Position numbers and translations under genes: made by a program | Part shown: positions 36,211-53,826 of the stretch, one piece after another | Layout: every line of letters starts with the position of its first letter | Numbering within the stretch: the first letter of the stretch is position 1 | DNA from: Akkermansia muciniphila | GTDB lineage: Bacteria; Verrucomicrobiota; Verrucomicrobiia; Verrucomicrobiales; Akkermansiaceae | Direction: 5' to 3' | NCBI GenBank assembly: GCA_945901795.1 | Contig: CAMDLP010000011.1 | Span: forward strand, 1 to 64,000 | DNA length: 64,000 bases | Notes under the pieces: generated by a model | Databases searched by the model: none | Told to the model about the DNA's origin: nothing | Seen by the model: only the letters and a program-made list of their open reading frames with translations

Positions 36211-36257
36211 GGTCGGGCGGAAGATTGTCCGCCCGACCCGCCTGCGGCAATCGAAAG

Positions 36258-36692: not shown

Positions 36693-36716
36693 CCGCTTTC
36701 GAGCAGGGCGAACCTC

Positions 36717-36887
36717 GTGACCGGCATCGTCGCCTGCATTGCGATTTTTCCGCTCGCCATGATCTGTGGCCCGCTGCGTGGGATCCCGTTCTATTGGCGT
36801 TTGATCGACTGCTCGTTCGGCGTGATCGGCATCATTCCGTTGGTCTATTGCCTGGGCCTGCTCAAGCAGATCGAGAAAAATGACTGA
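36717..36887 (+). CDS. Small putative membrane protein
   Basis: A 56-residue frame beginning with GTG at 36717 (MTGIVACIAIFPLAMICG...) and ending QIEKND. It has two hydrophobic helices (about 3-18 and 30-46) around a short GPLRGIPFYWR loop and a charged end. The hydrophobic pattern and codon use look genuine, but no ATG is available and the frame also opens upstream. It could be the tail of a larger decayed membrane protein. It lies 90 bases before the antiporter gene on the same strand. Confidence 0.45.
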   Translation: MTGIVACIAIFPLAMICGPLRGIPFYWRLIDCSFGVIGIIPLVYCLGLLKQIEKND

Positions 36888-36977
36888 TCGATTGATTTGG
36901 GGAAAGCTCTTCATGTCACGCTCGGACAATCGCAGCAAATTCATTGCCTGTCCCGCCCCCGCGGCCAGTATGGGCCG

Positions 36978-38651
36978 GTGACTGAATTCCTCTCCCGCAT
37001 CAAAGAAATCTCGCCGCACGCGGAACCCATCCTCGTCATCTCCCTCACGGCCATTCTCGGACTGCTGCTCGGCAGCATCAAGATCCGCGGCATGAAGCTC
37101 GGCGTCGCCGGGATGCTCTTCAGCGGGCTGCTGCTCGGCCACTTCGGCCTCAGCTTGGACCCGCATCTGATGGCGTTCCTGAAAGAGTTCGGGCTGGTGC
37201 TGTTCGTCTTCACCGTAGGACTCCAGTTAGGACCCGGGTTTTTCAACTCCCTGAAAAACGATGGACTCAAGCTGAATTCACTGGCCGTCATCGTGGTGCT
37301 CCTCGGCGCGGGCATCGCCTACGGCACCGGATATTTCCTCAAGTGGGACATCGGCGTGATGGCCGGCACCTTGTCCGGTGCCACCACCAACACCCCGTCG
37401 CTCGGTGCCGCGCAGCAGGCGATGGCGACCGCCGGCAACGGAGCTCAACAGGCGAATCTCGCCGCCATGGCCTACGCCGACGCCTATCCGTTCGGGGTGC
37501 TCGGGATCATTCTCGCGATGGTGATCATCCGCATGATTTTCCGGATCGACCCGAAAAAGGAACTGGTCCTCCTCCAACAGAAAATGGCGGAAGGCGCCAG
37601 CGAAGTGCGCCGCGCCACCTTCGTTATTGGAAACGCCAATCTGGCCGGCGAGTCGATCAAGAACATCCCCGGCCTCGGCGACAAAGGCATTGTGGTCTCG
37701 CGGATCCGCAGGAAATCCGATGCTCAAACCCTGGTGGCGACCCGCGACACAGTGGTGGAGCTCGGCGACAAGGTTCTCGCGGTGGGGTCACCGGAACAAT
37801 TGCACCGCGCCGGGCTCAGCGTGGGCAGCGAAGTGGACGAGGATTTACGCGACGCTCCGGGAACCATCACCTCGAAGCGGGTGATCGTGACTCACAAGGA
37901 CGTCGTCGGCAAAACCATCGCCGCGACACAAATCAGCCAGCGCTTCGGGGTGACTGTCAGCCGCGTCAGCCGCCAGGATATGATCCTGACCGCCATGCCT
38001 AACATGCGCTTGCAGTTCGGCGACATGCTCAATCTCGTCGGCGAGGAAGCCGCGATCGAGCAAGCCGCCAAGGTGCTCGGCAACTCCGTCCGCCAGCTCA
38101 ATGAGACGAGCTTCGCCTCGATTTTCATCGGGATCACCGTGGGGATATTTTTCGGACTCTATCCGTGGAGCCTGCCCGGAGTGCCAATCCCGTTGCGCCT
38201 CGGTCTGGCGGGAGGACCGCTCATCATCGCGATCCTGATGGGCCGTATGGGGAAAATCGGCCCGCTGGTCATCCACATGCCGATCAACGCGAATACCGCC
38301 TTCCGCGAGCTCGGCATCATCTTCTTCCTCGCCTGCGTCGGCCTCGGCGCGGGTGCGAAGTTCGTGGAAACCGCCTTCTCCGCAACCGGCCTGCAATGGA
38401 TGGCGCTCGGAGCCGCCGTCACCACCATTCCGCTGCTCATCGTCGGCGTGATCGCCCGGAAATGGCTCAAGGTCAACTACCTCACCCTCGTCGGCGTGCT
38501 CGCCGGCAGCATGACCGACCCGCCGGCCCTCGCCTTCGCCAACAAGCTCGCCAACTCCGACTATCCGTCACTGTCCTACGCCAACGTCTATCCGCTCACG
38601 ATGCTGCTCCGGATTCTCGTCGCGCAGATGGCGGTGCTATGGCTCTGCTGA
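36978..38651 (+). CDS. AspT/YidE/YbjL-family antiporter with TrkA-C domains
   Basis: From the GTG at 36978 it is 557 residues. Two half-repeats of five or so membrane helices (about 15-190 and 370-555), each with the family's Gly/Thr-rich signature ([19 protein letters not shown] and [19 protein letters not shown]), flank two cytoplasmic TrkA-C (RCK_C) regulatory domains (about 205-360). This is the aspartate:alanine exchanger family; substrates of YidE/YbjL members are unknown, while AspT exchanges aspartate and alanine. An upstream TTG would prepend a non-hydrophobic leader. Its last 15 bases overlap the antisense cusA fragment. Confidence 0.85.
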
Positions 38652-38768
38652 TTCACTGCCGAGCGATCTGTGGAGCGTGCCTTTATTGAGCTCGCGCTCG
38701 CGCAACCAGAGGAAAATCACCGGGGTGACGATGAGGATGTGAATGAGGCTGGAAATCATCCCGCCGAT
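38637..38768 (-). pseudogene. C-terminal fragment of a CusA-type RND pump gene
   Basis: The minus strand reads [20 protein letters not shown] then [11 protein letters not shown], identical to the end of the CusA-type protein encoded at 48737-52120. It then diverges ([12 protein letters not shown]) to a TAG at 38637. Nothing of the remaining ~1090 codons precedes it. It is a truncated duplicate, not a functional gene. Confidence 0.85.
38674..38768. repeat. 95-bp direct repeat, left copy
   Basis: This segment, starting AGCGTGCCTTTATTGAG and ending CCGCCGAT, is 93/95 identical to 48777-48871 in the same orientation. Identity stops abruptly at both ends. Confidence 0.92.
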
Positions 38769-38825
38769 TTGCCGGCATATCCCGCACGCTCTGATCAAGC
38801 GCTTGAGTTTGAAGCGCTAAAAAAT

Positions 38826-38853
38826 CCGCCCGGCAGACTGGGTCACCGGGCGG
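38826..38853 (-). terminator. Intrinsic terminator of the Cys-rich protein gene
   Basis: CCGCCCGG (38826-38833) and CCGGGCGG (38846-38853) form a GC stem. Read on the minus strand it is followed by ATTTTTTAG. It lies 30 bases downstream of the stop at 38883. Confidence 0.8.
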
Positions 38854-38882
38854 CTTGGACAAAGACCTGAATCGGGCCGGGG

Positions 38883-39293
38883 CTATCCCTTCATCGGCAC
38901 GATGAACATGCATTCCTTGCCTTCTCCATTCACAATCGTCACCTTGGATGAATCGGCTCCCTTGCCGGGAGGGCCCAAGTGTTTGATGGTCAATTTCTTT
39001 TTGCAGGAGTCGCAATGTAAGGATCCGCCGTCATGGCATAGCGCCTCGACCTCTTTTTCGTCGGCGACTTCCTTCACGGTGATCGATTTGCATTCCGTGC
39101 AGACCAACGCGTAGTGACCACCTGTCTTGAGGGCTTGGATCTCTTCCACCGTGGAGGCGTGTTTGTAACTACCCGCCCTCAAGACCCCACCTTTTCCGGG
39201 AGGTAGTGCTGACGCCGAAGTGGCAAGACCCACCGCAAACGCGGTGACGAGAATTGCTTTTAACGAGGATTTCATAATTGTAATCAGTTTCAT
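38883..39293 (-). CDS. Secreted Cys-rich protein of the metal island
   Basis: A 136-residue protein (or 130 from the ATG at 39275) with a signal peptide ending near ATSASA. The mature part has a CTEC pair (ALVCTECKSITV), a lone Cys-His (EALCHDGG), a CDSC pair (LHCDSCKKKLTI) and a final Cys in KECMFIVPMKG. Four to six thiols in zinc-ribbon-like spacing suggest metal binding, probably in the periplasm. A shortened second copy lies at 48242-48418. It neighbours a copper/silver-type efflux island, and soft-metal chelation is a reasonable inference. The family is not known to me. Confidence 0.75.
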   Translation of the reverse strand: MKLITIMKSSLKAILVTAFAVGLATSASALPPGKGGVLRAGSYKHASTVEEIQALKTGGHYALVCTECKSITVKEVADEKEVEALCHDGGSLHCDSCKKKLTIKHLGPPGKGADSSKVTIVNGEGKECMFIVPMKG

Positions 39294-39676
39294 GGTAGTG
39301 GTTTGTGTGGTTTAGTTTTTGATTTCTCACTGGCCGCCTTGGACGGCCTGATGAAACCAACCTATCCCCTCAACGCGGTTACTGCTCCGCATCTCTGCGA
39401 AAAGACTGTGCATTTTATTAACCTGCCGAACCCCCAACCATGCTGGCACGATGTGATGCGAATTAACGCCCGCCCGCTGCTTGTCGGTCAATCCGGTACA
39501 CCTTAGCTGCCGAGGTTCGCTCGTTGTTCCGCTCAAACCCGCGCCAAGTTCGGATTCCCCCCACCCCCCCGAAAAGAATTTCAAATTCAAGGATTGTCCA
39601 AGGTCGGGTTATACCCTAATACAATAAGTCTGACTGATCCCTTTAATAAAAGGATGATCTCCAAAGAAATCGTGAA
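39294..39676. other. Intergenic region between divergent Cys-rich and AraC-type genes
   Basis: 383 bases with no credible gene on either strand. It contains a C-tract (CCCCCCACCCCCCC near 39557) and an AT-rich segment (about 39600-39675) next to the regulator start, where divergent promoters and regulator binding sites are expected. I could not identify a specific operator. Confidence 0.6.
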
Positions 39677-40609
39677 ATGACCCAGTTTTCCCGGGTAAAT
39701 TCCCAGCTGTCGATGACCGCGCTCTCAAACAACCCCCACACGCTGGAAGTCCTATCCGCTTCCAAGGTCTATCGCGATTATGAGAGGGCATTCACGGAAG
39801 GCACCGGTCTTCCACTGCGGCTTCAAGCCCCCACGTTGTTCAATGGGGTCCACTACGGGAAAAAGCAGGAGAATCCCTTCTGCGCACTCATGTCGAAAAC
39901 CGACGAGGGCTGCGCGGAGTGTTATGCGTTGCAGTGTAAGGTGGAGGAGGAAGCCCAATATCAACCCAAGACTCTCAAATGCTTCGCGGGAATGTGTGAA
40001 ACCGCCGTTCCGGTTCGAGTCGGGGAAAACCTGATCGCATTCCTGCACACCGGACAAGTCCTTTTGCACCGGCCCGATAAAGTGCGCTTCAAGCAGATCG
40101 CGGCGACAATTCTCAAATGGGGGGCGGAGGTGGACTTGAAAAAACTGGAGGAACATTACCTCAACACGCGCGTCCTCACCCCGCAGCAATACGAGGCCTT
40201 GATCCGGCTGCTGGCAATTTTTGCCCAGCACCTAGCCGAGTGCGGCAACGCGCTGGCGTTGCACGGCACCAGCGGCGAGTTCCCGGCCGTCGAAAAGGCG
40301 CGGAGTTTCATCCGCGATCATTCCGATGACGAACTCTCACTGGCCGCCGTGGCAAAGACCGTCAATATGAGCGCGACCTATTTCAGCGGTAAGTTCAAGG
40401 AAGTGACCGGGATCAACTTCGTCGAATACGTGGCGCGGACCCGCATTGAGAAAGCCCGCCATTTCCTACTCGATCCAACCCGGCGGGTGAGCGAAGTGGC
40501 GTTTGACGTGGGCTTCCAGTCGCTGTCTCAGTTCAACCGGACCTTTAAAAACATCGTGGGTGAATCGCCGAGCGCCTATCGGGCGAAACTGCCCTTGGCG
40601 GTTTCTTGA
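39677..40609 (+). CDS. AraC-family regulator with PocR-like Cys-rich sensor domain
   Basis: A 310-residue protein. Residues about 25-195 form a PocR-type sensory domain with the cysteine pattern FCALM...GCAECYALQC...KCFAGMCETAVPV. A C-terminal AraC double helix-turn-helix follows (about 208-305, ending with FDVGFQSLSQFNRTFKNIVGESPSAYR). Family knowledge: PocR domains sense small ligands such as propanediol; in related proteins the Cys cluster is conserved. Here the gene opens a metal-efflux island, so sensing of copper, silver or thiol state is an attractive but unproven inference. An alternative start is the Met at 39713. Confidence 0.83.
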   Translation: MTQFSRVNSQLSMTALSNNPHTLEVLSASKVYRDYERAFTEGTGLPLRLQAPTLFNGVHYGKKQENPFCALMSKTDEGCAECYALQCKVEEEAQYQPKTLKCFAGMCETAVPVRVGENLIAFLHTGQVLLHRPDKVRFKQIAATILKWGAEVDLKKLEEHYLNTRVLTPQQYEALIRLLAIFAQHLAECGNALALHGTSGEFPAVEKARSFIRDHSDDELSLAAVAKTVNMSATYFSGKFKEVTGINFVEYVARTRIEKARHFLLDPTRRVSEVAFDVGFQSLSQFNRTFKNIVGESPSAYRAKLPLAVS

Positions 40610-40745
40610 TCCAATCAGTTCGGTTCCGGACTGAAGGGTCGAAAAAATGCGCGATATTTCAGTGCGGATGCATAGCCAATCTTCGGATGACCCGCGAAGG
40701 TATCGTTTGCAAAACACCGAAACATCGAACCTATCATCCAAACCC

Positions 40746-41033
40746 ATGCATCATCTATCAGTCAACCTGAGCACCGCGACCGGTTGCGTCTTTTCCGGGA
40801 GTGCGGCATCGCTCGACGTTCGCACCGATGATGGCAGCATTCACGTCAACGCGAATGAAGAGAGTTTCCTGAACATGCTTCACGCCACCGAGATCTCCGT
40901 CCAGACCCCGGAGGGTCTTCGCGTCTTCAAGCTTGATAATGCCGTTGCGGGGTTGAAGGGACACTGCTTCACCGTCCTTGCGGAAAACATCCGCCTCATC
41001 GAGCCGGGGACAGATGAATCGACCGCTTCTTGA
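40746..41033 (+). CDS. Small protein resembling the ATP synthase epsilon N-terminal domain
   Basis: A 95-residue protein starting MHHLSVNLSTATGCVFSGSA. Spacing of HHLSV, VFSG, the DDGSIHV stretch and the terminal FTVLAENIRLIE resembles the beta-sandwich N-terminal domain of F1 epsilon (AtpC), without the helical C-terminal hairpin. No other ATP synthase genes are nearby. It stands alone between the AraC-type regulator and a small lipoprotein gene at the start of the first efflux operon. The function is unknown, and the similarity is by eye only. Confidence 0.6.
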   Translation: MHHLSVNLSTATGCVFSGSAASLDVRTDDGSIHVNANEESFLNMLHATEISVQTPEGLRVFKLDNAVAGLKGHCFTVLAENIRLIEPGTDESTAS

Positions 41034-41230
41034 CCTTGTTCCGCGTTGGCATCCATCGCACAAGGCCGTCCAAACGGAATATCCCCCAACTGAAGAAATG
41101 CAGGGTTTATCATTCGAGGTGCATAGCGGAATTCATACGGCCGCCCTATCGTGTATATCAGTCAGCGGGGTTCTCGTCGCCCGCCGGAATTCAATTCCAC
41201 CACGAGTAATAACCACAAACACCAGGAATT

Positions 41231-41404
41231 ATGAAAATCAAACTTAGACACACGTTGGCCGCCATTGGCCTCATCATCGCTGCCCTGACCTTCTCCAACT
41301 GCAGCACTGGCTCAACTTCGGGCGGAACCCACAACATGGGAAGCCACAGAAGCTATAATCCCATGCCTAACTCGGAAATGCCTAACGAGAAGGATCGCCA
41401 TTGA
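41231..41404 (+). CDS. Small putative lipoprotein
   Basis: A 57-residue protein with a lipoprotein signal (MKIKLRHTLAAIGLIIAALT then FSNC as lipobox, Cys24). The 33-residue mature part is rich in Ser, Gly, His, Asn and Met (NMGSHRSYNPMPNSEMPNEK). Met/His richness suits a periplasmic soft-metal binder. GGA-containing GGAATT sits before the ATG at 41231. It precedes the first TolC/adaptor/pump operon. Confidence 0.65.
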   Translation: MKIKLRHTLAAIGLIIAALTFSNCSTGSTSGGTHNMGSHRSYNPMPNSEMPNEKDRH

Positions 41405-41577
41405 TCATGCCGCTCCTCGCCCTGTTGCATGCCTAACGCGGATATGCCCGGTCGCTGAGACCGCCGTTCCGGAGAGCAGGCTCCGCCCGGTTGCACCGCT
41501 CCGGGCGGCGCTTCCGGTCGAGGACTCACCTGATCGATATTGAGCGGAGAGAAGCGCTGGCAAGTGCTTCATCAGCG

Positions 41578-42837
41578 ATGAGTATGAAACTATCAGGACA
41601 AATGAAAGCGGGTGGCAATTGGAAGTTGCTGGCCAGCCTTGCGGTCTTCTCCGGCGTCCTCGTGTCGGCGGCAGCAATGACCTTCGAAGACATCGGGCGG
41701 CAGGTAGCTGCCAGGAATCCCGACCTTGCCGCTGCCCGCTTCATGATCGAAGAAGCAGGAGGCCGGAATCTTGGAGCGGGGCGGCTGATGAATCCGGAGC
41801 TTGAACTTCGCGGCCGGCACATGACCGAGGGGAGCGAGGCCGGATTCGGCATCGAGCTGATGCAAAAGTTTCCAGTGACCGCACGCCTTCGATTGGAGAA
41901 AGCGGTGACCGCGGCGCAGATCGCAGCCGCGAAAGCCGAGGTGGATGAGATGCGGCGGATGCTAACGACTGAGGCCGAAACCATGGCGGTGAAACTTCTG
42001 GCGATGCGGGCTGAAGTCGGCATTACGGAAAGCCAGGCAGCGTTGGCAGAGACGCTGACGGAGGTGGCCACGGCACGAGCCGCGGCCGATGAGTCCGCGA
42101 TTGATGCCGCGCAAATGCGTTTAGAAGCCGGTCGCCAGCGGAACTCGATCCGGCGGATGCAAGCTGAGATTGCGGCCATGAACGAGTTGCTTAAACCCAT
42201 GCTCGGCCTTACCGCCGAACAACCACTGGACATCAGAGGAACGTTGCCCGAGGCCAGCGCGCCAGGTGGCACGCAACCGAGTGAATTCCGCCCGGATATT
42301 GAAGCCGCGCGGCAGCGCATGAATGCGGCGGGTCAGTCGATGGATCTCGCCCAGGCACGCAAGTGGGGGGACATCTCCGTCGGCATCATGGTGGATTATG
42401 CGCGGACGATGGATGAGCCAATGGGCCTGCGGGACGAAACCATGATCGGAGTGAAGTTGACCATCCCGCTGCCATTCTGGAACCAAAACCAAGGAGAGAT
42501 CGCTGAGGCAACTGCGATGCGGGCAAGAACCGCGGCGGAGGTGCGGGCGCTGCGCTTGAAGGCGGCCAGCCAGGTTTCTTCGGCGAAGAGGGAGATGGAG
42601 CGCTTGCTGCCATTCATTACTGAAAACAACAGGCAGCTTCTCCCTCTGGCGAGGCAACAGATCGAGCGCGTGCGTGAAGCCTATTCTAACAACAATGCTT
42701 CGCTTCAGGACCTGCTGAAGGCACGCGATCAGCTTCTCATGGTGGAGATGGACAGGGTGGAGGCGCTGCGGGATTTCCATCTCGCCAAGGTGCGCTGGAA
42801 GGCGGCGGTCGGACGAGGATTCACTGATGAAAACTAG
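41578..42837 (+). CDS. TolC-family outer-membrane factor of efflux system 1
   Basis: About 419 residues from the ATG at 41578 (41584 is an alternative). A signal peptide (SLAVFSGVLVSAAA) is followed by the helical coiled-coil repeats of an outer-membrane efflux protein (FEDIGRQVAARNPDLAAAR ... ELELRGRHMTEGSEAGFGIELMQKFP ... MIGVKLTIPLPFWNQNQGE). The pattern fits CusC/CzcC proteins. No lipobox Cys is seen after the signal, unlike E. coli CusC. It is the first gene of a three-gene cluster with the adaptor (23 bases on) and the RND pump. Confidence 0.88.
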   Translation: MSMKLSGQMKAGGNWKLLASLAVFSGVLVSAAAMTFEDIGRQVAARNPDLAAARFMIEEAGGRNLGAGRLMNPELELRGRHMTEGSEAGFGIELMQKFPVTARLRLEKAVTAAQIAAAKAEVDEMRRMLTTEAETMAVKLLAMRAEVGITESQAALAETLTEVATARAAADESAIDAAQMRLEAGRQRNSIRRMQAEIAAMNELLKPMLGLTAEQPLDIRGTLPEASAPGGTQPSEFRPDIEAARQRMNAAGQSMDLAQARKWGDISVGIMVDYARTMDEPMGLRDETMIGVKLTIPLPFWNQNQGEIAEATAMRARTAAEVRALRLKAASQVSSAKREMERLLPFITENNRQLLPLARQQIERVREAYSNNNASLQDLLKARDQLLMVEMDRVEALRDFHLAKVRWKAAVGRGFTDEN

Positions 42838-42860
42838 GAAACCCATGGAGGAACAGAATC

Positions 42861-44333
42861 ATGAAAGGCAAACGTCTCATCATCATCATCGCTACCGCCG
42901 TTATCGTGCTGGCGGTAGCCCTCAGCTTTTGGAGTTCGCGCCCGGCACCGAGTGCCGCCGAGCACCAAGGTCACGAAGCCGCGCACGACAAGGGCGAAGG
43001 CACGCTGCACGTCGCTGAGGCAGCCCGGGAAAGGGCGGCGCTGGAGACGGCGGTCGTTGAACGACGTGACCTGAAGCACTCGCTCCGGGTGTTCGGGAAA
43101 ATTGACTACAACGAAACGGGGTTGGCAACGATCACAAGCCGGGTGGAGGGCTACGTGGAGAACCTCTTCGTCAATTTCACCGGTGTGGAGGTGAAAAAGG
43201 GCGATCATCTCGCCGAGATATACAGCCCTGATCTCGCCGTCGCCCAGCGCGAATTGTTTCTCGGCAGCAGAGATCCAACTGACAAAACGTTGCTCGCGGC
43301 AGCAAAGACAAAGTTGGAACGTTGGGGCCTGCTGCCGGAGCAGATCGAGGGGTTTTTGCGCGAGGGCAAAGTCACGGAGCGCGTCACGTTGATGGCACCA
43401 ATGGACGGCACGGTGACGGAGAAGATGGTCGTGCAAAACAGCATGGTGAAGCCCGGCGAGATGCTCTACAAGCTGGCCAATCTCGATTCCGTCTGGCTGT
43501 ATCTCGACATTTACGAATACGAACTTGGCATGATCCGCTATGGCCAGGAAGTCGCGGCCACCACCGAGTCGTATCCGGGCGAGACCTTCACGGGCCGGGT
43601 GTGGTTCATTAATCCGACGTTGAGTGAGGAAACGCGCACCGTGAAGGTCATCGTGTCGTTAGACAACAAGGGCCGCAAACTCAAGCCGGGGATGTTCGTC
43701 AGCGCCAATGTGGAGGTCCCGCTGCTCGCGGATGGAACGGCCGCATCGAGCGGTGTGGAAGGTCGCTGGTCATGCCCGATGCATCCGCAGGTGCTGCGCG
43801 ATGCTGCCGGTCCTTGTCCCGTGTGCCAGATGGCACTCGTGCAAATCCCTGGCAAAGCGGGAACTGCAAAGCCAGCGCAAGCACTGGCGATCCCGCTCAC
43901 GGCAGTGTTGGACTCCGGCACGCGCAAGCTGGTGCATGTGGAGGTGAGCGAGGATGTCTATCGTCCCGTCGAAGTGAAGGTGGGCCCCCGCAGCGGAGAT
44001 TATTATCCGGTGCTTGAAGGAGTGAAGGAAGGTGATCGCGTGGTGGTGCGCGGCAATTTCCTGCTCGACTCGCAGTTCCAGATCGCGGGTCTGCCGAGTC
44101 TTTTTTATCCGAAGGGTCAGGCCCCGTCAGCGGGCCATTCAGGGCACGGTGGAACCGTGACACCTGGGTCCAAGAGCGCGACACCTTCACCCATACCTGA
44201 ATCTAACAATATTGAGCCTGCGGAGCCCTCAGGTCACGAAGGGATGGTCATCCCACCTGACAAAGCCGCGCCGGTTCCACCGCCTCCCGCTAAAGAAACC
44301 AAGGACGCGACACCTCCCGGTCATCAACACTGA
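42861..44333 (+). CDS. RND periplasmic adaptor with internal heavy-metal-binding domain, system 1
   Basis: A 490-residue membrane-fusion protein with an N-terminal anchor (LIIIIATAVIVLAVALSFW), a His-rich stretch (EHQGHEAAH), and the barrel-sandwich/lipoyl region (about 70-210). The beta-barrel includes LDIYEYELGMIRYGQEV. A YHS-like heavy-metal-binding domain CPMHPQVLRDAAGPCPVCQM near residues 304-323 sits inside the membrane-proximal part. The C-terminus is Pro/His rich, ending GHQH. CPMHP...CPxCxM units are known in copper/silver CusB-type adaptors and Cu-ATPases, so copper or silver is favoured over Co/Zn/Cd. A good SD (GGAGGAACAG) precedes the ATG. Confidence 0.88.
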   Translation: MKGKRLIIIIATAVIVLAVALSFWSSRPAPSAAEHQGHEAAHDKGEGTLHVAEAARERAALETAVVERRDLKHSLRVFGKIDYNETGLATITSRVEGYVENLFVNFTGVEVKKGDHLAEIYSPDLAVAQRELFLGSRDPTDKTLLAAAKTKLERWGLLPEQIEGFLREGKVTERVTLMAPMDGTVTEKMVVQNSMVKPGEMLYKLANLDSVWLYLDIYEYELGMIRYGQEVAATTESYPGETFTGRVWFINPTLSEETRTVKVIVSLDNKGRKLKPGMFVSANVEVPLLADGTAASSGVEGRWSCPMHPQVLRDAAGPCPVCQMALVQIPGKAGTAKPAQALAIPLTAVLDSGTRKLVHVEVSEDVYRPVEVKVGPRSGDYYPVLEGVKEGDRVVVRGNFLLDSQFQIAGLPSLFYPKGQAPSAGHSGHGGTVTPGSKSATPSPIPESNNIEPAEPSGHEGMVIPPDKAAPVPPPPAKETKDATPPGHQH

Positions 44334-44341
44334 CCCCCACC

Positions 44342-47300
44342 ATGACTTCCTGGATCATCCATTCGTGTCTGCGCAATCCCTTCCTCGTGATCGTGGGAGT
44401 GATGGCGTTGATCTTCGGCGGCGTCTATGCCTTGAAGCAAACACCGGTGGATGCGATCCCCGACATCGGTGAAAAACAAGTCATCGTCTATGCCGACTGG
44501 GATGGTCGCTCGCCGCAGGACGTGGACAATCAGATCACCTATCCGCTGACCACCGCGCTCACTGGCACGCCTGGTGTGAAGGCCATCCGCAGCATGTCGG
44601 GCTTCGGCTTCTCGATGGTCTTCGTGATCTTCAAAGACGAAGTCGATTACTACTGGGCGAGGTCGCGGGTCATCGAGCGCATGAATGTGGTGCAGCAGCG
44701 TCTGCCCAAGGGCGTGGTGCCCGTCATCGGCCCGGATGCCACGGCGCTCGGACAGGTCTATTGGTACACTGTCGAGGGCGAGGGCTTCGACCTCGCGGAG
44801 CTGCGATCCATCCAGGACTGGTATCTCCGCTATCAGCTCAACGCCGAGGACGGCGTGAGCGAAGTCGCCAGCATCGGCGGCTTCGTGAAGCAGTATCAGA
44901 TCGACATCCATCCCGACAAACTGCGCGCGCATCGCGTCACCTTGATGGAAGTGAATGAAGCGGTCCGCAAAGCCAACATCGATGTGGGCGCGAAGGTGCT
45001 GGAGAAAAACGGCGTTGAGTTTTTCATCCGCGGCATCGGCTTCATCAAGTCCGTGGAGGATTTGGAAAAGGTCGTCATCCGGCAGGAAGGCGGCACACCC
45101 ATACAGGTCAAGAACGTGGCCACCGTCACGCTCGGTCCCGACTTCCGCCGGGGCTCGCTGGACAAGAACGGGCAGGAAGTCGTGGGTGGCGTGGTGTTGA
45201 TGCGTTATGGCGAAAACCCGCAGCACGTCGTCGAACGCGTGAAGCAAAAGATCAAGCAGCTTGAACCGGGCTTGCCAAAAAAGAAGCTCGCGGATGGCCG
45301 CATCGCCAAGGTTCACATCGTGCCATTCTATGATCGCACGACCATTGTGGAGGAAACCATCGGCACGCTCAAGGAAGCGCTCGCTGAAGAAGCGCTTCTC
45401 GGAAGCCTGGTCATCCTCATTTTCCTCCTGCACCTGCGCAGCACCGTCTCCGTGCTGGTGACGTTCCCGCTCAGCGTCGCGATCTGCTTCATCCTCATGT
45501 ATGTCGTTGGAGTTGACTCTAACATTATGTCGCTCGCCGGTCTTGCCATTGCCATCGGCGATGTGGGCGACATGGGTATTATCATGACGGAGAACATCTA
45601 TCGTCACGTCGCGGCGAGGGACAAATCGAAGAGCTACTTCGACACGATTTACGAAGGCGCATCGGAAGTCGGCGGCGCGATCATCACCGCGGTGTCGAAC
45701 ACATTGGTTTCCTTTATCCCCGTATTCTTCCTCGCGGATCAGGAAGGCAAAATGTTCCGCCCACTCGCCTTCACCAAGACCTTCGCCATCAGCGGCTCTG
45801 TCATCCTCGCCATCACGGTGGTGCCACTGATATGTTATTTCATTTTCTATCCGGTGAAGTGGAAGAAGCAGATCGTGTGGGGCTTGGCGACAGTCCTTGG
45901 TATTGTGAGCGCCATCGCGGTTCATCTCATCCTCGTGTGGACCACGGACGTCGGTCACTACAGCGGCTGGCCGACTTCCATCGCCGTTGGCATCATCGTC
46001 GCACTTGCCGTGGTGCGAATGACTAGGGAACGCTTCCTGCCGCTGGAGGAGAACGTCGTTTCACGCAGTGTGTTCAAGGTTTACGACCCGACCCTGCGTT
46101 GGATTCTCGCGCACAAAAAGACGTTCATGATGGCGCCTATGTTGATCCTCTTCACCGGGATCACCATCTGGCTTGGAGTCTCCACCACGTTGGCTCCCGT
46201 CGGTTGGGGCATCAATCTCTTCGCCCGTGAGAAGGCATCGCCAGAGCTGAAACGTGACATGAGTCTAACTCCCAAAGAGGACGCGACGCGACCCTTGATC
46301 GAGCTGGATCAACTTCGCTGGCAACGCGTGCGAAATACCGACGGCTCCACGCACCACCGCATACTCTGGCGTCGCCAGGATCCGCGTGACCGCGCCACTG
46401 AAATGGCATCAGGCGCAAAGGTCACCGCCGAGCGCCGCTTTCTGCCTGGCATCGGGCGCGAGTTCATGCCGCCGCTGGATGAAGGCTCGTTTCTCTATAT
46501 GCCATCGCTGCTGCCGCAGACCGGTCTCGGACCCGCCATCGAAGTGAATGCGAAACAAGACCTCGCAATCGCCAGCGTGCCCGAAGTCGAATCCGTCGTC
46601 GGCAAACTCGGACGCGCCGAGAGCGCGCTCGATCCCGCGCCGATCTCGATGCTGGAGAGCATCGTCATTTTGAAACAGGAGGATCAATGGCGGACCTTCC
46701 CGGTGAAACGTTGGTTCTCCAGTTGGCCTGGCTGGCTCAAGGCACCGCTCGCCTGGATCGCGCCGGAACAACGCCGCATCACCAAGCCCGAAATTCTGGC
46801 AGAACTGCAGGTGAAGACCGCCTTGCCCGGGGTGCTGCCGACGTGGCTGCAACCGATTCAAACCCGCATCACCATGCTGCAAACAGGCTTCCGCGCGATG
46901 ATGGGCGTGAAGATCTATGGCAGCGATTTGAAGGAGATCGAACGCCTCGGCCTCCAGATCGAATCCCTGCTCAAAGAAGTGCCCGGCTCCACCGACGTGG
47001 TCGCGGATCGCATCGTCGGCAAACCCTACCTCGAATTTGAAATCGACCGCGACCGCATCGCCCGCTACGGCGTGAACATCCGCGACGTGCAGGACGTGAT
47101 CGAGATGGCCATCGGCGGCATGAACCTGATGGAGTCGGTGGAAGGACGCGAGCGCTATCCGATCCGTGTTAGATACTTGCGCGAGTTTCGTGAAGATATC
47201 CCCGAGCTGGAGAAAATCCTCGTGCCATCCAGCACCATGGCGCAAGTGCCACTCGCGCAAGTCGTCACTATCAAGAGCGTGCTCGGCCCGCAGGAAATCA

Positions 47301-48073
47301 AGGGCGAGCGCGGATTGCTCGTCGGCTATGTGACGATGAATACGCGCGACCGCGATGAAATCAGCGTCGTCGAGGATGCGGAGAAACTGTTGCAAGCCGC
47401 CTTGAAAGACGGCCGACTCACGCTGCCCGCTGGCTACTACTGGGAATGGAGCGGCCAGTTTGAGAGCCAGCGGCGTGCGACCGCGCGGATGCAAATCCTG
47501 GTCCCGGTCACGTTGCTCATCATGATCGTCATGCTCTATCTCGGCTTCCGCCGCTGGTGGATTGCGCCGATCATTTACTTCGGCATTCTAACATCGGCCG
47601 CAGGCGGTTTCATCATGCTGGCATGGTGGGGCGCGAACCTTTCCGTCGCCGTGTGGGTTGGCTTCCTCGTGCTTTTCGGCGTGGCCGATGATGATGGCGT
47701 TGTCATGTCCACCTACCTGGAAAACAGCTTCGACAAGTTGAAGCCCGATTCCATCAAGGAGATCCGCGAAGCGGTCGTTCAAGCCGGCTTGAAGCGCATC
47801 CGCCCCTGCCTCATGACGCTATCCACCACGGTTTTCGGCCTGATGCCCATCTTCTGGGCCACGGGCCGCGGCTCCGACGTGATGCAGCCCATGGCCATCC
47901 CAAGCATCGGCGGACTCGCCGTCAGCCTTCTCGTCAGCATCTTCATCGCGCCCACGCTCTTCTGCGCCGTAGAGGAGTGGAAATGGAAGCGGGCGCAAGC
48001 TCGCCCGCCCCACGAAACTGAAACCGACAAGTGCGAAGCCGATGATTCGCTAGGCGCGCTTCACCATCCGTAA
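44342..48073 (+). CDS. Heavy-metal RND efflux pump (CusA/CzcA family), system 1
   Basis: A 1243-residue inner-membrane pump, about 200 residues longer than E. coli CusA. The N-terminus (TPVDAIPDIGEKQVIVYADW) is diagnostic for the HME subfamily. TM4 carries the proton-relay acids as GDVGDMGIIMTEN, where VDAAIVMIEN-like sequences are usual. The extra length is two hydrophobic segments near residues 505-560 and a charged stretch near 625-695 before GREFMPPLDEGSFLYMPS. TM10-11 have WVGFLVLFGVADDDGVVMS. Together with the adaptor and TolC protein it should export a soft metal from periplasm and cytoplasm, using the proton gradient. Confidence 0.9.
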   Translation: MTSWIIHSCLRNPFLVIVGVMALIFGGVYALKQTPVDAIPDIGEKQVIVYADWDGRSPQDVDNQITYPLTTALTGTPGVKAIRSMSGFGFSMVFVIFKDEVDYYWARSRVIERMNVVQQRLPKGVVPVIGPDATALGQVYWYTVEGEGFDLAELRSIQDWYLRYQLNAEDGVSEVASIGGFVKQYQIDIHPDKLRAHRVTLMEVNEAVRKANIDVGAKVLEKNGVEFFIRGIGFIKSVEDLEKVVIRQEGGTPIQVKNVATVTLGPDFRRGSLDKNGQEVVGGVVLMRYGENPQHVVERVKQKIKQLEPGLPKKKLADGRIAKVHIVPFYDRTTIVEETIGTLKEALAEEALLGSLVILIFLLHLRSTVSVLVTFPLSVAICFILMYVVGVDSNIMSLAGLAIAIGDVGDMGIIMTENIYRHVAARDKSKSYFDTIYEGASEVGGAIITAVSNTLVSFIPVFFLADQEGKMFRPLAFTKTFAISGSVILAITVVPLICYFIFYPVKWKKQIVWGLATVLGIVSAIAVHLILVWTTDVGHYSGWPTSIAVGIIVALAVVRMTRERFLPLEENVVSRSVFKVYDPTLRWILAHKKTFMMAPMLILFTGITIWLGVSTTLAPVGWGINLFAREKASPELKRDMSLTPKEDATRPLIELDQLRWQRVRNTDGSTHHRILWRRQDPRDRATEMASGAKVTAERRFLPGIGREFMPPLDEGSFLYMPSLLPQTGLGPAIEVNAKQDLAIASVPEVESVVGKLGRAESALDPAPISMLESIVILKQEDQWRTFPVKRWFSSWPGWLKAPLAWIAPEQRRITKPEILAELQVKTALPGVLPTWLQPIQTRITMLQTGFRAMMGVKIYGSDLKEIERLGLQIESLLKEVPGSTDVVADRIVGKPYLEFEIDRDRIARYGVNIRDVQDVIEMAIGGMNLMESVEGRERYPIRVRYLREFREDIPELEKILVPSSTMAQVPLAQVVTIKSVLGPQEIKGERGLLVGYVTMNTRDRDEISVVEDAEKLLQAALKDGRLTLPAGYYWEWSGQFESQRRATARMQILVPVTLLIMIVMLYLGFRRWWIAPIIYFGILTSAAGGFIMLAWWGANLSVAVWVGFLVLFGVADDDGVVMSTYLENSFDKLKPDSIKEIREAVVQAGLKRIRPCLMTLSTTVFGLMPIFWATGRGSDVMQPMAIPSIGGLAVSLLVSIFIAPTLFCAVEEWKWKRAQARPPHETETDKCEADDSLGALHHP

Positions 48074-48091
48074 GGTTGTGAACCTAAAGCG

Positions 48092-48241
48092 ATGAGTTCA
48101 CACGCCGAACCAGACATTATGAGTCCCTCATTGCGAGTGCAGCGCCTCGGCGTGGTGATGGAGCCGGAGGCAGGCAATCCGATGGAGGCGGAAGGCGTCT
48201 TGAACCCCGCATCGGCGCGCGGTCGCGACGGGCAACTCTAA
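48092..48241 (+). pseudogene. N-terminal fragment of a GH130-type glycosidase gene
   Basis: From an ATG at 48092 the frame encodes 49 residues including LRVQRLGVVMEPEAGNP and EAEGVLNPASARGRDGQL. This is the opening of GH130-family mannoside phosphorylase-like proteins, which normally continue with LYLFPRLV. The frame stops at TAA (48239-48241) exactly where the family's Tyr codon is expected, and no further GH130 sequence follows. This marks a recombination junction near 48240. Confidence 0.75.
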
Positions 48242-48418
48242 ATGGAACTTGATGAGTTTTGCCACAACGGCGGGTCCATCCACTGTCCTTCCTGCAAGAA
48301 GCAAGTCACCGTCAAGACTGTAGGGCCTCGGCCCGGCGCAAGCCCGGGAATTACAAAAGTCACCATTGTCAACGAGGCTGGCAAGGAATGCATGTTCGTC
48401 GTCCCGCTAAAGGATTAA
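48242..48418 (+). pseudogene. Shortened second copy of the Cys-rich metal-island protein
   Basis: A 58-residue frame (MELDEFCHNGGSIHCPSCKK ... TKVTIVNEAGKECMFVVPLKD) is clearly homologous to the C-terminal 60 residues of the protein encoded at 38883-39293. It keeps the CH, CPSC and KECMF cysteines but lacks signal peptide and the CTEC half. It starts directly after the broken GH130 fragment. It could still be expressed as a small cytosolic peptide, but is better read as a truncated copy. Confidence 0.7.
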
Positions 48419-48437
48419 CCAAGCATCCTGGAGTTCA

Positions 48438-48462
48438 TCCGGCGGACGGGTCTTCCGCCGGA
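48438..48462. terminator. Hairpin terminator between convergent genes
   Basis: TCCGGCGG (48438-48445) and CCGCCGGA (48455-48462) form a perfect 8-bp GC stem, followed on the + side by CTTATTTCAATTT. It separates the Cys-rich fragment from the minus-strand lipoprotein gene. Confidence 0.65.
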
Positions 48463-48463
48463 C

Positions 48464-48721
48464 TTATTTCAATTTCGCCAGATACTTTGCGGGTTCCTTC
48501 TCGAACTTGGGCAGGCAGCTTTTGCAGCAGAATTTAATCTGCTGACCTTGGTGGATGAACTCGTAGGGCTTACCCATTTCGCCGAGCTTCTCGCCGGAGA
48601 CGAGACAAGTGTTGAGGGTGTAGGGCTTGGCGGAGTCCGTGGTGGCGGTTTCGGTTTTCGCGGGATTGCACGAAACGAAGAGCAGCGAGGTGATTGCGGT
48701 TGTGATGATGGTGGTTTTCAT
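48464..48721 (-). CDS. Small lipoprotein with YHS/TRASH-like metal-binding domain
   Basis: An 85-residue protein with a lipoprotein signal (MKTTIITTAITSLLFVSC, lipobox Cys18). The mature domain has TCLVSGEKLGEMGKPYEF, QIKFCCKSCLPKFEKEPAKYL: a lone Cys followed by CCxxC and the terminal FxxxPxKYL signature of YHS-type domains, which bind copper or other soft metals. It is the last gene after the second RND pump gene, 15 bases downstream of it, so it is probably co-expressed and located in the periplasm. Confidence 0.8.
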   Translation of the reverse strand: MKTTIITTAITSLLFVSCNPAKTETATTDSAKPYTLNTCLVSGEKLGEMGKPYEFIHQGQQIKFCCKSCLPKFEKEPAKYLAKLK

Positions 48722-48736
48722 AATGTGCGTTTGGTG

Positions 48737-51700
48737 TTAGTGAGGAGAATGATCATGGGTGGACAGGGAGTGCTGAAGCGTGCCTTTATTGAGCTCGCGC
48801 TCGCGCAGCCAGAGGAAAATCACCGGGGTGACGATGAGGATGTGAATGAGGCTGGAAATCATTCCGCCGATGACGGGGGTGGCTAACGGCTTCATGATCT
48901 CCGCGCCCTGGCGGCTGCTCCACATGATGGGCAACAGGCTGGCCACTGCCGTGGCCACGGTCATGACCTTCGGACGCAAGCGGAGTTTGGCGCCGTCCTT
49001 GACGGCCTGGATCAGATCGGCTTGGGAAAACGCGGAACCGAGTTTTGCCATGCGGGTCTTCACGGTTTCCTCCAGATAGACGACCATCACCACGCCGGTC
49101 TGCACGGCGGTGCCGAACAGTGCGATATAACCGACCCACACCGCGCCGTTGAAGTTATAACCCAGCGCCTTTTGTAACAGCACGCCGCCGCTGAGCGCGA
49201 AAGGCACGGCAAGCATGACGTGCGCGGCTTCCATCCCACTATGGAAGACCATGAACAGCAGCACGAAAATCACCATCAGCACCAGCGGGAAAATCAGCCA
49301 CATGGTCTTGGTGAATCGGCGTTGGTTCTCATACTCGCCGGTCATCTTGTAGGTCATGCCCTCCCAGTTGACGGTCTTGAGCTTTTGTTCGATTTCCTCG
49401 ACGAAGCCGCCCAGGTCGCGGTCCTGGACGTTCGCCTGCACATAGCTCCGCAGCTTGCCGTTTTCCGAGGCGATTTCGTTAGCACCGATGCTGCGGGTGA
49501 TTTTCGCGACCATGCCGAGCGGGATATATGGCGTGTTAGCGCCAGCTCCGCCCGTCGCGGTCGCCGCCGGAGCGGAGCCTCCGCCCATTCCGCCGCCAGC
49601 TTGAGGGGCGGAAGTCGCGCCACTCATGCCGGGCTTGGCGGCGATCAGGATGCGGCTGAGTTTCTCAATGTCGTCGCGCTCGCCGCGCTCGACGCGGATT
49701 TGGATCGGGAACCGTTGGCGGCCTTCGATGGCGGTGCTGACGTTCTTGCCGCCGATGGAAATTTCCACCGCGTCCAGCACATCCTTCGCGCTCAGGCCGT
49801 AGCGGGCCATCGAGACGCGATCGACCTCGATGTTCAGATAGGGTTTCCCCTGGACGCGTGACGGGGAGACACCTGCCGCGCCGGGAACTTCGTTGATGAG
49901 CTTTTCGATCTCAAACGCCTTGCGTTGGATGGCATCGAGATTGTCTCCATAGATCTTCACCCCGACCTGCGCGCGGATGCCGGTGTAGAGCATGAGGATG
50001 CGGTTCTCGATGGGTTGGAGGAACGCGGGCACATAGCCGGGCACTTCCTTCATTTTCTCGGTGAGCTCGGCCTTGAGCTTTTCCATCGTCATGCCTTCGC
50101 GCCATGCCGGGTTGCGTTTGACGCGGAATTTCCCGTTAGGAATGTATTCGGGCTTGAGCATGATGGTGGTTTCCAACATTTCCGTCGGCGCGGGATCGGT
50201 GGCGGTTTCGAAGCGGCCGAGCTTGCCGGCCACAGTTGCCACTTCGGGCGTGGCGGCGATGATCTGGTCCTGCCAGGACATGACGCGCTGGATTTCCTTG
50301 AAGCCGGTCTTCGGCATTAGCACCGGCATGTGCAGCAGACTGCCCTCGTTGAGCGGCGGCATGAACTCCTTGCCGAAGCCGGCGAACAAATCCGCGGTGC
50401 GCGTAAATCCGGCGTCGGCGAGTTGTTTGGTGGTGGCGCGTGGCAGGCCGAAGGCCAGCAACAGGCAGAAAGCTAACAATAAAACGGCCGCGCCGACAAC
50501 CGTCTTGCGGTGGACCAGCGCCCACGACAGCGCCGGATCGTAAATCCGCATTAGGAAACTCATCACGATGTTGCGGTCCTCCTCATGATACGGACCGCGC
50601 ACGAGGAAGGAACATAGCACGGGCACCAGCGTCACGCCCAGCACCGTGGCTCCGAGCATCGCAAAGGTCTTGGTGAAGGCCAGCGGGTGGAACAATTTTC
50701 CCTCCTGGCCGGTGAGCGCGAAGACCGGCAGGAAGGCGAGCAGGATGATGCCCATCGCGAAAAAGATCGGACGGCCGACCTGCTGAGACGCGGTGAGCGT
50801 CGTCTGCCACCGCTCGATGGCGGTGAGCGGGCGGCCTCTCTCCTTTTCCTCCGTCTCGCAATGTCGGATGACGTTTTCCGTCACCACGATGGCCGCGTCC
50901 ACCAGTACGCCGATGGCGATGGCGATGCCTGTTAGCGACATGATATTGCTGGTGATGCCGAATTCCTTCATCAGCAGGAAGGAAACGAGGATCGAGATCG
51001 GCAGCGGCAGCGTGACGATGAGGATGCTGCGGAAGTGCCACAGGAAAATGATGTGGGCGAGCGTGACGAGGATGATTTCCTCGACGAGGGCGTGCTTGAG
51101 CGTGTCGATGGTGCGGTCGATCAACTCGCTGCGGTCGTAAAACGGCCGGATGGTGACGCCGGGCGGCAAGCTGGCGGCGATTTCATCGATTTTTTGCTTC
51201 AACCGTTCAATGACGGCTTTGGCGTTCTCGCCGGTGCGCATGACGACGGTGCCGCCGACGGCTTCGCGGCCGTTCAAGTCAAGCGCGCCGCGGCGGTAGT
51301 CGCCGCCGATCTGGATGGTGGCGATGTCTTTCAGATAGATCGGCGTGCCTTCCACCGCCTTGACGGTGACGAGCTCTAGATCCTCGGGTCCGGTGACGAG
51401 ACCGATGCCGCGAAGGACAAACTCCGCGCCGTTTTCCTCGACGGTTTTGCCACCGACGTTGAGGTTGGCGTTCTGCACGGCGGTAAGCACTTCCATCATC
51501 GTGATGTTGGCGGCCCGCATTTTGGTGGAGGAAAGTTCCACCTGATACTGCTTCACAAAACCGCCGATGCTGGCGACTTCCGCGACGCCCTGCACGCTGG
51601 CGAGGTCGTAGCGGATTTTCCAATCCTGAAGCGAGCGGAGTTGGGCGAGGTCATAACCGCCTTCCGGGGATTTCGCCGGATCGACATGCAGGTAATATTG

Positions 51701-52120
51701 ATAGACCCAACCGAGACCGGAGGCGTCGGGTCCTAACTGCGGTGTCACGCCCTCGGGCATCTGCCCTTGGAGGAAATTCAGCCGTTCCAAAACCCGTGCC
51801 CGGGCGAAGTAGGTATCGACTTTGTCCTCAAAGATGATGGTGGCCAGCGAGAAACCGAACATGGAGGTGGCGCGCACTTCCTTCACTCCCGCGAGTCCTT
51901 GCAGACCGGTGGAGAGCGGGAACGTCACCTGATCTTCCACTTCCTGCGGGCTGCGACCCATCCAATCAGCATAAACCAGCACCTGGTTTTCCGTGAGGTC
52001 CGGGATGGCGTCCACCGGGGTGAGGTAAACAGCGCGGACGCCGAGCGCAACTAACAATAGCGAAGTGCAGAGCACGAGGAACCGGTTTTTCAGGCTCCAT
52101 TCGATGACTTTTTCGATCAT
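48737..52120 (-). CDS. cusA: Heavy-metal RND efflux pump (CusA family), system 2
   Basis: From the ATG at 52120, preceded by AAAGGAG and overlapping the adaptor stop (ATGA), it is 1127 residues. HME motifs: TPVDAIPDLTENQVLVYADW and AIGVLVDAAIVVTENVIRH (proton-relay Asp). GKEFMPPLNEGSLLHMPVLMPKTG is rich in Met, as in the CusA methionine relay. An unusual Gly/Ala/Met-rich insertion (about residues 845-880, AGGGMGGGSAPAATATGGAG) interrupts the porter domain. The C-terminus is His rich (THDHSPH). Its last ~95 bases exist as a second copy at 38674-38768. Likely Cu(I)/Ag(I) export with the adaptor and TolC protein encoded upstream. Confidence 0.92.
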   Translation of the reverse strand: MIEKVIEWSLKNRFLVLCTSLLLVALGVRAVYLTPVDAIPDLTENQVLVYADWMGRSPQEVEDQVTFPLSTGLQGLAGVKEVRATSMFGFSLATIIFEDKVDTYFARARVLERLNFLQGQMPEGVTPQLGPDASGLGWVYQYYLHVDPAKSPEGGYDLAQLRSLQDWKIRYDLASVQGVAEVASIGGFVKQYQVELSSTKMRAANITMMEVLTAVQNANLNVGGKTVEENGAEFVLRGIGLVTGPEDLELVTVKAVEGTPIYLKDIATIQIGGDYRRGALDLNGREAVGGTVVMRTGENAKAVIERLKQKIDEIAASLPPGVTIRPFYDRSELIDRTIDTLKHALVEEIILVTLAHIIFLWHFRSILIVTLPLPISILVSFLLMKEFGITSNIMSLTGIAIAIGVLVDAAIVVTENVIRHCETEEKERGRPLTAIERWQTTLTASQQVGRPIFFAMGIILLAFLPVFALTGQEGKLFHPLAFTKTFAMLGATVLGVTLVPVLCSFLVRGPYHEEDRNIVMSFLMRIYDPALSWALVHRKTVVGAAVLLLAFCLLLAFGLPRATTKQLADAGFTRTADLFAGFGKEFMPPLNEGSLLHMPVLMPKTGFKEIQRVMSWQDQIIAATPEVATVAGKLGRFETATDPAPTEMLETTIMLKPEYIPNGKFRVKRNPAWREGMTMEKLKAELTEKMKEVPGYVPAFLQPIENRILMLYTGIRAQVGVKIYGDNLDAIQRKAFEIEKLINEVPGAAGVSPSRVQGKPYLNIEVDRVSMARYGLSAKDVLDAVEISIGGKNVSTAIEGRQRFPIQIRVERGERDDIEKLSRILIAAKPGMSGATSAPQAGGGMGGGSAPAATATGGAGANTPYIPLGMVAKITRSIGANEIASENGKLRSYVQANVQDRDLGGFVEEIEQKLKTVNWEGMTYKMTGEYENQRRFTKTMWLIFPLVLMVIFVLLFMVFHSGMEAAHVMLAVPFALSGGVLLQKALGYNFNGAVWVGYIALFGTAVQTGVVMVVYLEETVKTRMAKLGSAFSQADLIQAVKDGAKLRLRPKVMTVATAVASLLPIMWSSRQGAEIMKPLATPVIGGMISSLIHILIVTPVIFLWLRERELNKGTLQHSLSTHDHSPH
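48777..48871. repeat. 95-bp direct repeat, right copy
   Basis: This lies within the 3' end of the system-2 pump gene and is the presumable parent of the left copy at 38674-38768 (two mismatches). Confidence 0.92.
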
Positions 52121-53826
52121 GGTTTGATCTCCTTTCCGCATTCGAGCATTTCACTTCCGAAGAACGGGTTGCCCATGCTGCGGCCGCCGGTCTGGATCCA
52201 GCGGGCTTTATTGGGCGCTCCGGGGATCGCTTCATCGACCATCGGACACTCGTAGATTTGAAACTCCGGAGTCTGCCCGGCTTTGCGCAACGGTTCGAGC
52301 GCGGCGGTGGCGGCGACGGAGAATTTGTGGAAGGCGATGCGTGCGGCTTTCAGATCATCGAAGCCGTGGAAGTGGCGGGCCTTGTCGAGGTCGTCGAGGT
52401 CGTCGAGGTCGTCGAGGTCGTCGAGGTTCTCCACGTTCGGGCGCAGGAGTTTGACCATCGCGCCGGTGATGTTCATCGCCGGTTCGCTGGCGGTGTTGAA
52501 TTTCGCCAGATCATCCGCGGCGAGCGCGGCAGACATGGCGTCGGCGACCTTGAGGAAATCCGCGATGGATTTCTTTTGCTCGTCGTTGATTGCCGCAAGG
52601 GGCGCCGCCACGGTCATGGTTTCCGGCGGAGTCATGAAGGCGCGGTTCATTTCCGCCTGGCCGTCTATCAGCAGGTTACCGTTGGTGACGACGGCGTCGC
52701 CCTCCTTGAGTCCTGATAGGATTTCGACGAGTGTGTCGCCGCGGCGGCCGGTCTTGATGACGGTGTGCTCGTAGGCGCCGCCCGTTTGGTCGATGTAAAC
52801 CACGGCATCGGCCCCGGTTTCGATCACGGCGGAACGGGGGACGGTGAGCACGGCGGGCGCTTCAAGCGCGATCTTGCCATCGGCATAGAGGCGGTGGAGT
52901 AGTTCGCGGCGGCCGTTGACGAGCGGGTTGTCCAGTTCGACTCGCACCTTGGTGGAGCGGGTGGATTCGTCGAAGTTGGGATCGATGAAGGTGATTTTCC
53001 CGACGAACTCCTTGTTGGGAATCGAGGGCGTGGTGATCGTCACGGGCAGGCCGGGTTTGATCCACGGCATGTCCTGTTCGTAAGCGCGGAACATGAACCA
53101 CATGGTGGAGAAATCGGCGAGCTCGAAGAGTTGCTGGCCGGTGGCGACGTATTGGCCTTCGTAGATTGACTGGGCGACGACGGTGCCGCTGATGGGTGAT
53201 AGAATCTGCGAGGTGAGCGAGTCGGCGGGCTTTTGATCGAGCGTGTCGATCTGTGTCTGGGTGAGTCCCATCTGGCGGAGCCGGAGCGCGGTGTTCTTCT
53301 TGAGCTCGCCGCCGAGTTGGCGGTATTCGCGCTCGGCCTGGAGCAGCGAGGGGCTGTAGAATTCCGCGAGCGGCTGGCCTTCGGTGACCTCGGCTCCGAT
53401 GTAATTCACGTGCAGTTTGTCGATGCGTCCGTCCACGTAGGCGGAGAGCACGCGGTGGCGCATGGCGTTGTCATCGATGGTGCCGGACACGCTGAGGGTG
53501 CGGACGAGCGGGCGGGTTTTCGCCTCGGCGGTCTGCACGTGCAGCACCTGGATCTGGTTCTGGGTGAGAGCGACCACGTTGCCGCCGCCGGACTCGTCGA
53601 AGCCTTTTTCCCCCTCGTAAACGGGGGTGAGCTCCATGCCGCAGATCGTGCAGCGGCCGGGCTTGTCGCTCTTGATCCACGGGTGCATGGCGCTCTGATA
53701 GAAGAGCGGTTTGCGTTCGCCGGCCGAGGTGGTGGCTCCTGCTTGGGGTGCGGTTTTTTGCAGGGTGAACCAGGTGGCTCCCGCGGCTAACAAAGCGGTG
53801 ATGAGGATGGTGAGGAATGTTTTCAT
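52117..53826 (-). CDS. cusB: CusB-type periplasmic adaptor with HMBD and DUF3347-like domain, system 2
   Basis: A 569-residue membrane-fusion protein. It has an N-terminal signal/anchor (FLTILITALLAAGATWF), then a heavy-metal-binding domain with AMHPWIKSDKPGRCTICGME (about residues 50-70), then the lipoyl/barrel core (VLSAYVDGRIDKLHVNYIG ... LFELADFSTMWFMFRAYEQD). From about residue 405 there is a DUF3347-like helical domain ending with ECPMVDEAIPGAP...GNPFFGSEMLECG, as in copper-type adaptors. Between them lies a five-fold LDD tripeptide run from a 9-bp tandem repeat. Its stop overlaps the cusA start by 4 bases. Confidence 0.9.
   Translation of the reverse strand: MKTFLTILITALLAAGATWFTLQKTAPQAGATTSAGERKPLFYQSAMHPWIKSDKPGRCTICGMELTPVYEGEKGFDESGGGNVVALTQNQIQVLHVQTAEAKTRPLVRTLSVSGTIDDNAMRHRVLSAYVDGRIDKLHVNYIGAEVTEGQPLAEFYSPSLLQAEREYRQLGGELKKNTALRLRQMGLTQTQIDTLDQKPADSLTSQILSPISGTVVAQSIYEGQYVATGQQLFELADFSTMWFMFRAYEQDMPWIKPGLPVTITTPSIPNKEFVGKITFIDPNFDESTRSTKVRVELDNPLVNGRRELLHRLYADGKIALEAPAVLTVPRSAVIETGADAVVYIDQTGGAYEHTVIKTGRRGDTLVEILSGLKEGDAVVTNGNLLIDGQAEMNRAFMTPPETMTVAAPLAAINDEQKKSIADFLKVADAMSAALAADDLAKFNTASEPAMNITGAMVKLLRPNVENLDDLDDLDDLDDLDKARHFHGFDDLKAARIAFHKFSVAATAALEPLRKAGQTPEFQIYECPMVDEAIPGAPNKARWIQTGGRSMGNPFFGSEMLECGKEIKP
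52384..52428. repeat. 9-bp tandem repeat inside the cusB coding sequence
   Basis: Five copies of GTCGAGGTC (the last with one change) encode repeated Leu-Asp-Asp on the minus strand. The unit is a multiple of three, so copy-number change would keep the frame. Confidence 0.9.

Follow-up and report, generated by a model that had tools for sequence, protein, structure and literature searches.

The window analysed here is a 64,000-nt stretch of contig CAMDLP010000011.1 from a draft genome of Akkermansia muciniphila. An AspT-type permease gene (Asp-Al_Ex and TrkA_C domains; Pfam PF06826, 1.8e-85) lies on its plus strand at 36897..38651. Further to the right, on the minus strand, cusA2 (48737..52141; PF00873, 6.7e-219) encodes the resident RND heavy-metal pump, and the next genes of the cusA2 operon are those for CusB2 (52117-53826) and, after it, OEP2 (53831-55075). 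Between the permease gene and the resident operon lies a segment of 10,005 bp (38769..48773), which is missing from three relatives with an empty site and is referred to below as the insert. Its G+C content is 58.0%, compared with 63.0% in the left flank and 60.7% in the right flank.

The leftmost gene of the insert encodes a 136-aa exported Cys-containing protein with no Pfam family (38883..39293, minus strand), homologues of which adjoin metal genes in three other genomes (G177, G026 and G015). A second partial relative of this gene, with 81% DNA identity, is found elsewhere in the same genome (G000:C9:32717-32931). An AraC-type regulator with a PocR sensor domain (39677..40609; PF12833, PF10114) and a 128-aa protein resembling the N-terminal domain of the F1-ATPase epsilon subunit (40647..41033; PF02823, 1.3e-6, score 28.7 against a cut-off of 27) are encoded next, both on the plus strand. 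The epsilon-like gene sits between the metal regulator and an RND system, with no ATP synthase gene in the neighbourhood, and its relatives in G177 and G026 likewise have regulator and Cys-protein genes of these types next to them. The RND system, also on the plus strand, consists of an outer-membrane efflux protein, OEP (41491..42837; PF02321, 3.5e-31), a CusB-type membrane fusion protein with a heavy-metal-binding domain (42861..44333; PF16576, 2.7e-68; PF19335) and the heavy-metal pump CusA1 (44342..48073; PF00873, 1.9e-198). According to Pfam, the OEP, CusB-type and AcrB/CusA-type genes of a CusCBA-type system thus stand together. CusA1 and CusA2 have different versions of a conserved transmembrane motif.

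Two gene fragments on the plus strand follow towards the right end of the insert. The 49-codon one (48092..48241, a reading frame) matches no Pfam family, and a homologue of it was not found in the related loci compared. The other (48242..48418) is a 58-codon C-terminal remnant, kin of the 136-aa Cys protein at a DNA similarity of 70%, and forms an inverted repeat with 38881-38945. Over 48092-48418 the start of a gene with no family match abuts the end of a Cys-protein gene, as if the two had been joined by a deletion. The contents of the interval are those given by a sequence-only reading of the same DNA, namely the AraC/PocR regulator, OEP, CusB-like and CusA-like proteins, small Cys genes and two gene fragments. 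Neither an integrase, a transposase or another recombinase nor a relic of one was found by Pfam in the genes of the insert or in the ten reading frames of its gaps. Terminal inverted repeats at the ends of the insert were considered and rejected, the match amounting to only 7 nt.

Like Cus/Czc-type tripartite heavy-metal RND clusters, the insert has genes of the OEP, CusB and CusA types, accompanied by a regulator and by small proteins that putatively bind metal. It differs from the usual clusters of this kind in its accessory PocR-AraC regulator, the epsilon-like protein and the 136-aa Cys protein. Among the papers listed by a literature search on copper clusters of Verrucomicrobia, none was relevant.

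Direct repeat and empty site

The insert is framed by direct repeats located within the 3' end of a gene. The sequence-only reading had described them as 95 bp long with 93/95 identical positions. The repeat is real and in the same orientation, and its true extent is 98 nt (38671..38768 and 48774..48871) with 95/98 identical positions and a spacing of 10,103 bp. Mismatches fall at repeat positions 3, 35 and 90, and the longest exact stretch common to both copies is 54 nt. Identity drops abruptly beyond both edges of each copy, in agreement with the sharp loss that had been claimed. A whole-genome search of the 3.28-Mb draft (120 contigs) yielded these two copies only (E 8e-46 and 1e-41), which excludes a chance origin of the repeat.

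The left copy starts 20 nt past the stop of the permease gene. On the minus strand, which is that of cusA2, it reads on, into the AspT 3' end, to a native stop, and its tail matches the SAEP* and SAQP* tails found at the same place in the empty-site relatives. The agreement with these relatives in both the tail and the position of the stop identifies the left copy as the former terminus of the gene. It had been taken for a cusA end without a body, which holds, and can now be specified as the displaced native cusA2 terminus with its own stop. The right copy is inside the live cusA2, also as proposed; it is not the extreme end of the gene, however, as cusA2 runs 37 nt further to its stop at 48737. 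This new 3' tail (48737..48773, minus strand), supplied by the insert, ends QHSLSTHDHSPH. Read on the minus strand, the right copy continues as ...LNKGTLQHSLSTHDHSPH, and 15 nt downstream of the cusA2 stop follows an 85-aa YHS/TRASH-like gene (48464..48721, minus strand; YHS 4.5e-6, below the curated cut-off).

Nine other congeners likewise have a gene of the YHS-like family closely following cusA2 and pointing the same way. The region from cusA2 to the YHS-like gene forms one unbroken DNA match across the repeat edge in three of them (G011, G170 and G002), and in G189, G238, G144, G031, G027 and G026 the YHS-like gene lies a short distance downstream of cusA2. Together with the tail of the left copy, these contexts mean that both copies have a natural cusA2 downstream context, of two kinds, and that only the joint 38768/38769 is without one. 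The kinship of the 37-nt new tail to the YHS-linked cusA2 tails appears in gene order more than in sequence. Other arrangements were also seen: G015 has two cusA2-type operons at different places, with a YHS-like gene upstream of each and not downstream, and in G024 the possible first codons of a YHS-like gene (ATGAAAACCATCATC) come right after cusA2 and then give way to unrelated sequence, as though the gene had been cut short there.

Three congeners (G012, G010 and G221) have the uninterrupted site, in which the repeat sequence is present once and the AspT gene is adjacent to and convergent with cusA2. They are approximately 88-90% identical to the window across AspT and the repeat. Colinearity with the window covers approximately 34993-38768 on the left (from 34975 in G221) and starts again on the right at 48774, from where it extends to 56777 in G012, 57242 in G221 and 55590 in G010. 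On the side of the cusA2 operon, the colinear DNA up to 56777 is 90% identical to that of G012. When window positions 38401-38768 were joined to 48872-49300 and aligned to each of the three genomes, the alignments had 797 columns and 0 gaps, and the same 98 bases of the empty site were matched twice in the window. The rejoining without gaps implies that the 10,005 bp (38769-48773) and a 98-bp duplication were added, and that resident sequence was not lost. Together with the empty site it gives the direction of the change as insertion, barring precise loss in the relatives, which is disfavoured by the near identity of the two copies. With the reservation that the assembly is a draft, the insertion as such is nearly certain. 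The sequence-only reading had suggested searching for relatives that possess one copy and lack the module, and the three congeners, colinear on both sides, are of exactly this kind. Its proposal that recombination inserted the module and left the repeat as a scar is borne out by these empty sites and the gapless flanks, and the relatives compared showed neither the same gene order without the repeat nor a full-length cusA at both places.

The two copies differ from each other at 3/98 positions, whereas a comparison of either one with four relatives gives 7-13/98 differences. The copies share, at two sites, a base seen in none of the four. The low divergence and the shared private states indicate that the duplication is recent, that the donor was of the same species, or that gene conversion has taken place. 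The best explanation would be that the insertion dates after the split from the nearest sequenced relatives.

Origin of the inserted genes

No orthologue of CusA1 was found in 72 other genomes of the genus, in which its best matches are approximately 51-54% identical and mostly orthologues of cusA2, with 58% identity to one short piece. CusA1 is closer to other Verrucomicrobiota, with identities of 77-79% along almost the entire protein to sequences from several of them and of 82% to part of a protein from a Prosthecobacter MAG; identities to proteins of Planctomycetota and others are approximately 53-76%. Judged from these matches, the CusA1 RND system is foreign to the genus. A plasmid search with CusA1 gave only relatives below 60% identity and no donor record.

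Within the genus, the epsilon-like gene is found here and in G026 only, and outside it also in G177. The latter genome, which belongs to another genus, has relatives of nearly the whole gene set on one contig within approximately 27 kb, and its AraC regulator, located directly downstream of its cusA2, is 77% identical to that of the insert at the amino acid level. The source of the insert is probably a linked metal-resistance region of the G177 kind. In G170, G031 and G027 the module was not found directly beyond the YHS-like gene, within approximately 7-8 kb. With the insert the genome presumably gained a second RND pump, whose metal is uncertain, in addition to the resident Cus-like one. For metal resistance in Verrucomicrobiota, a foreign second RND pump is hereby documented beside a resident one.

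Mode of insertion

We consider it rather likely that the cluster entered the terminal part of the resident cusA2 through a single homologous crossover (Campbell-type) with a circular molecule. The donor circle would have carried the cluster together with the small YHS-like gene and the last part of a cusA2 gene (approximately 98 bp plus the tail). A crossover within the shared stretch would have left the resident old end beside AspT as the left copy and given the gene body the tail of the circle as the right copy, so that the whole circle would have landed between the copies with the resident DNA intact. A gapless insertion with a duplicated homologous gene end is the expected product of a single crossover with a circle, and here the repeat is homologous gene sequence and the target is undeleted. 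The circularity of the donor, the making of both copies by one crossover and the identity of the donor are what we infer from this. In Escherichia coli, single crossovers by circular plasmids that carried a shortened lacZ end produced lacZ duplications of 109-950 bp flanking the insert (PMC3240628). As in that plasmid integration, the insert is located between direct duplications of a gene end and the resident DNA is kept; in the lacZ case, however, the incoming molecule was a laboratory plasmid, and the 98-bp repeat is just below the range of 109-950 bp (PMC3240628). Several points stand against the single crossover. Neither a donor molecule nor a strain carrying the circle was found, a homology of 98 bp is short for efficient RecA recombination, and the new tail is tied to the YHS-linked cusA2 tails by gene order more than by sequence. 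The near identity of the copies, moreover, requires that the donor belonged to the same species or a very close one, or that gene conversion came later.

The main rival to the single crossover is the one-sided illegitimate integration of linear DNA. In such homology-facilitated illegitimate recombination, one end of a linear donor would have been anchored by its homology to cusA2 and the other attached by illegitimate joining, with the former 3' end persisting as a relic. The joints are compatible with this route, as only the left inner one (38768/38769) lacks a natural context and the right one is homologous cusA2. A parallel exists in the effector modules of Vibrio cholerae, for which displaced relics of gene ends have been proposed to arise by the illegitimate route (PMC5361080). 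The likeness to those T6SS clusters is that the incoming cluster is thought to have been anchored in a resident homologue, with old 3' parts remaining beside it; the difference is that the old parts there were displaced by a proposed illegitimate joining, whereas the duplication here is lossless (PMC5361080). The illegitimate route normally deletes resident DNA of a size similar to that of the insert (PMC3240628), but in the present case 0 bp were lost and 98 bp were duplicated. The lack of a target deletion is unlike typical homology-facilitated illegitimate recombination, and we regard this route as unlikely. The possibility that the module and both repeats are ancestral, and that G012, G010 and G221 each lost them precisely between the repeats, would yield exactly the empty site observed. 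It demands, however, at least one precise loss as well as the absence of CusA1 from all other congeners, and copies of that age should differ at approximately 7-13/98 positions, as the species do, and not at 3/98, unless gene conversion has acted; we give it very little weight.

Site-specific integration accounts for the same structure by reading the 98 bp as attL and attR of an element that targets and restores the 3' end of cusA2 and has later lost its integrase. A target at a gene 3' end, a restored tail that is changed and an old end displaced to the far side all fit such an architecture, and the fragments at 48092-48418 suggest a partial deletion of the segment. The prophages e14 and phage 21 in icd similarly bring their own version of the 3' end of the target gene and restore the gene. 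Those elements encode an integrase, whereas none was found in the genes of this insert or its ten gap frames, nor a transposase or a relic. In addition, no integrase-bearing element at the 3' end of cusA2 was seen in a non-systematic look at the relatives. The architecture is the only positive support for site-specific integration, which we hold to be quite improbable. An assembly artefact, in which the repeat joins unrelated pieces in one contig, is suggested by the draft of 120 contigs and by an exact match of up to 54 nt between the copies. On the other hand, the left inner joint lies outside repeated sequence and would not be created by a misjoin through the repeat, there is a single cusA2 in the genome, and the flanks are ordered as in the relatives. 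These facts leave hardly any room for an artefact.

The single crossover remains our preferred reading, and overall the locus represents an ordinary, though well-supported, genomic-island insertion by which a metal-efflux cluster was acquired. It is a clean case, recent in comparison with species divergence, of a resistance cluster entering a genome without recognisable mobile-element machinery. The landing site was a homologous gene already resident in the genome, and no sequence was given up. With the scar in place the event could in principle be undone, since a RecA-dependent exchange between the two copies would excise the insert and bring back the former cusA2 end. The locus also illustrates that a recent acquisition can be marked by a short repeat next to a metal operon. 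It is a highly doubtful extension of this that the 3' end of cusA2 might be a recurrent docking site, where metal-resistance circles without an integrase move in and out by homologous recombination via a gene-end repeat of approximately 100 bp, with the C-terminal tail of the pump exchanged on each occasion.

Identity along the resident operon

Identity to G012, G010, G221 and G024 was profiled along cusA2-cusB2-OEP2. A mosaic import of the 3' part of cusA2 from a distant donor was rejected, as no identity step at the 3' end singled out one relative. In the CusB2 region, positions 52137-52937 are 96-99% identical to G010, compared with approximately 85-93% in most of the remaining operon, which suggests recent recombination between species. 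OEP2 (53831-55075) has approximately 74% amino acid identity to G010 and G221 as against 91-92% to G012 and G024, and was apparently exchanged on its own, without the other genes of the operon.
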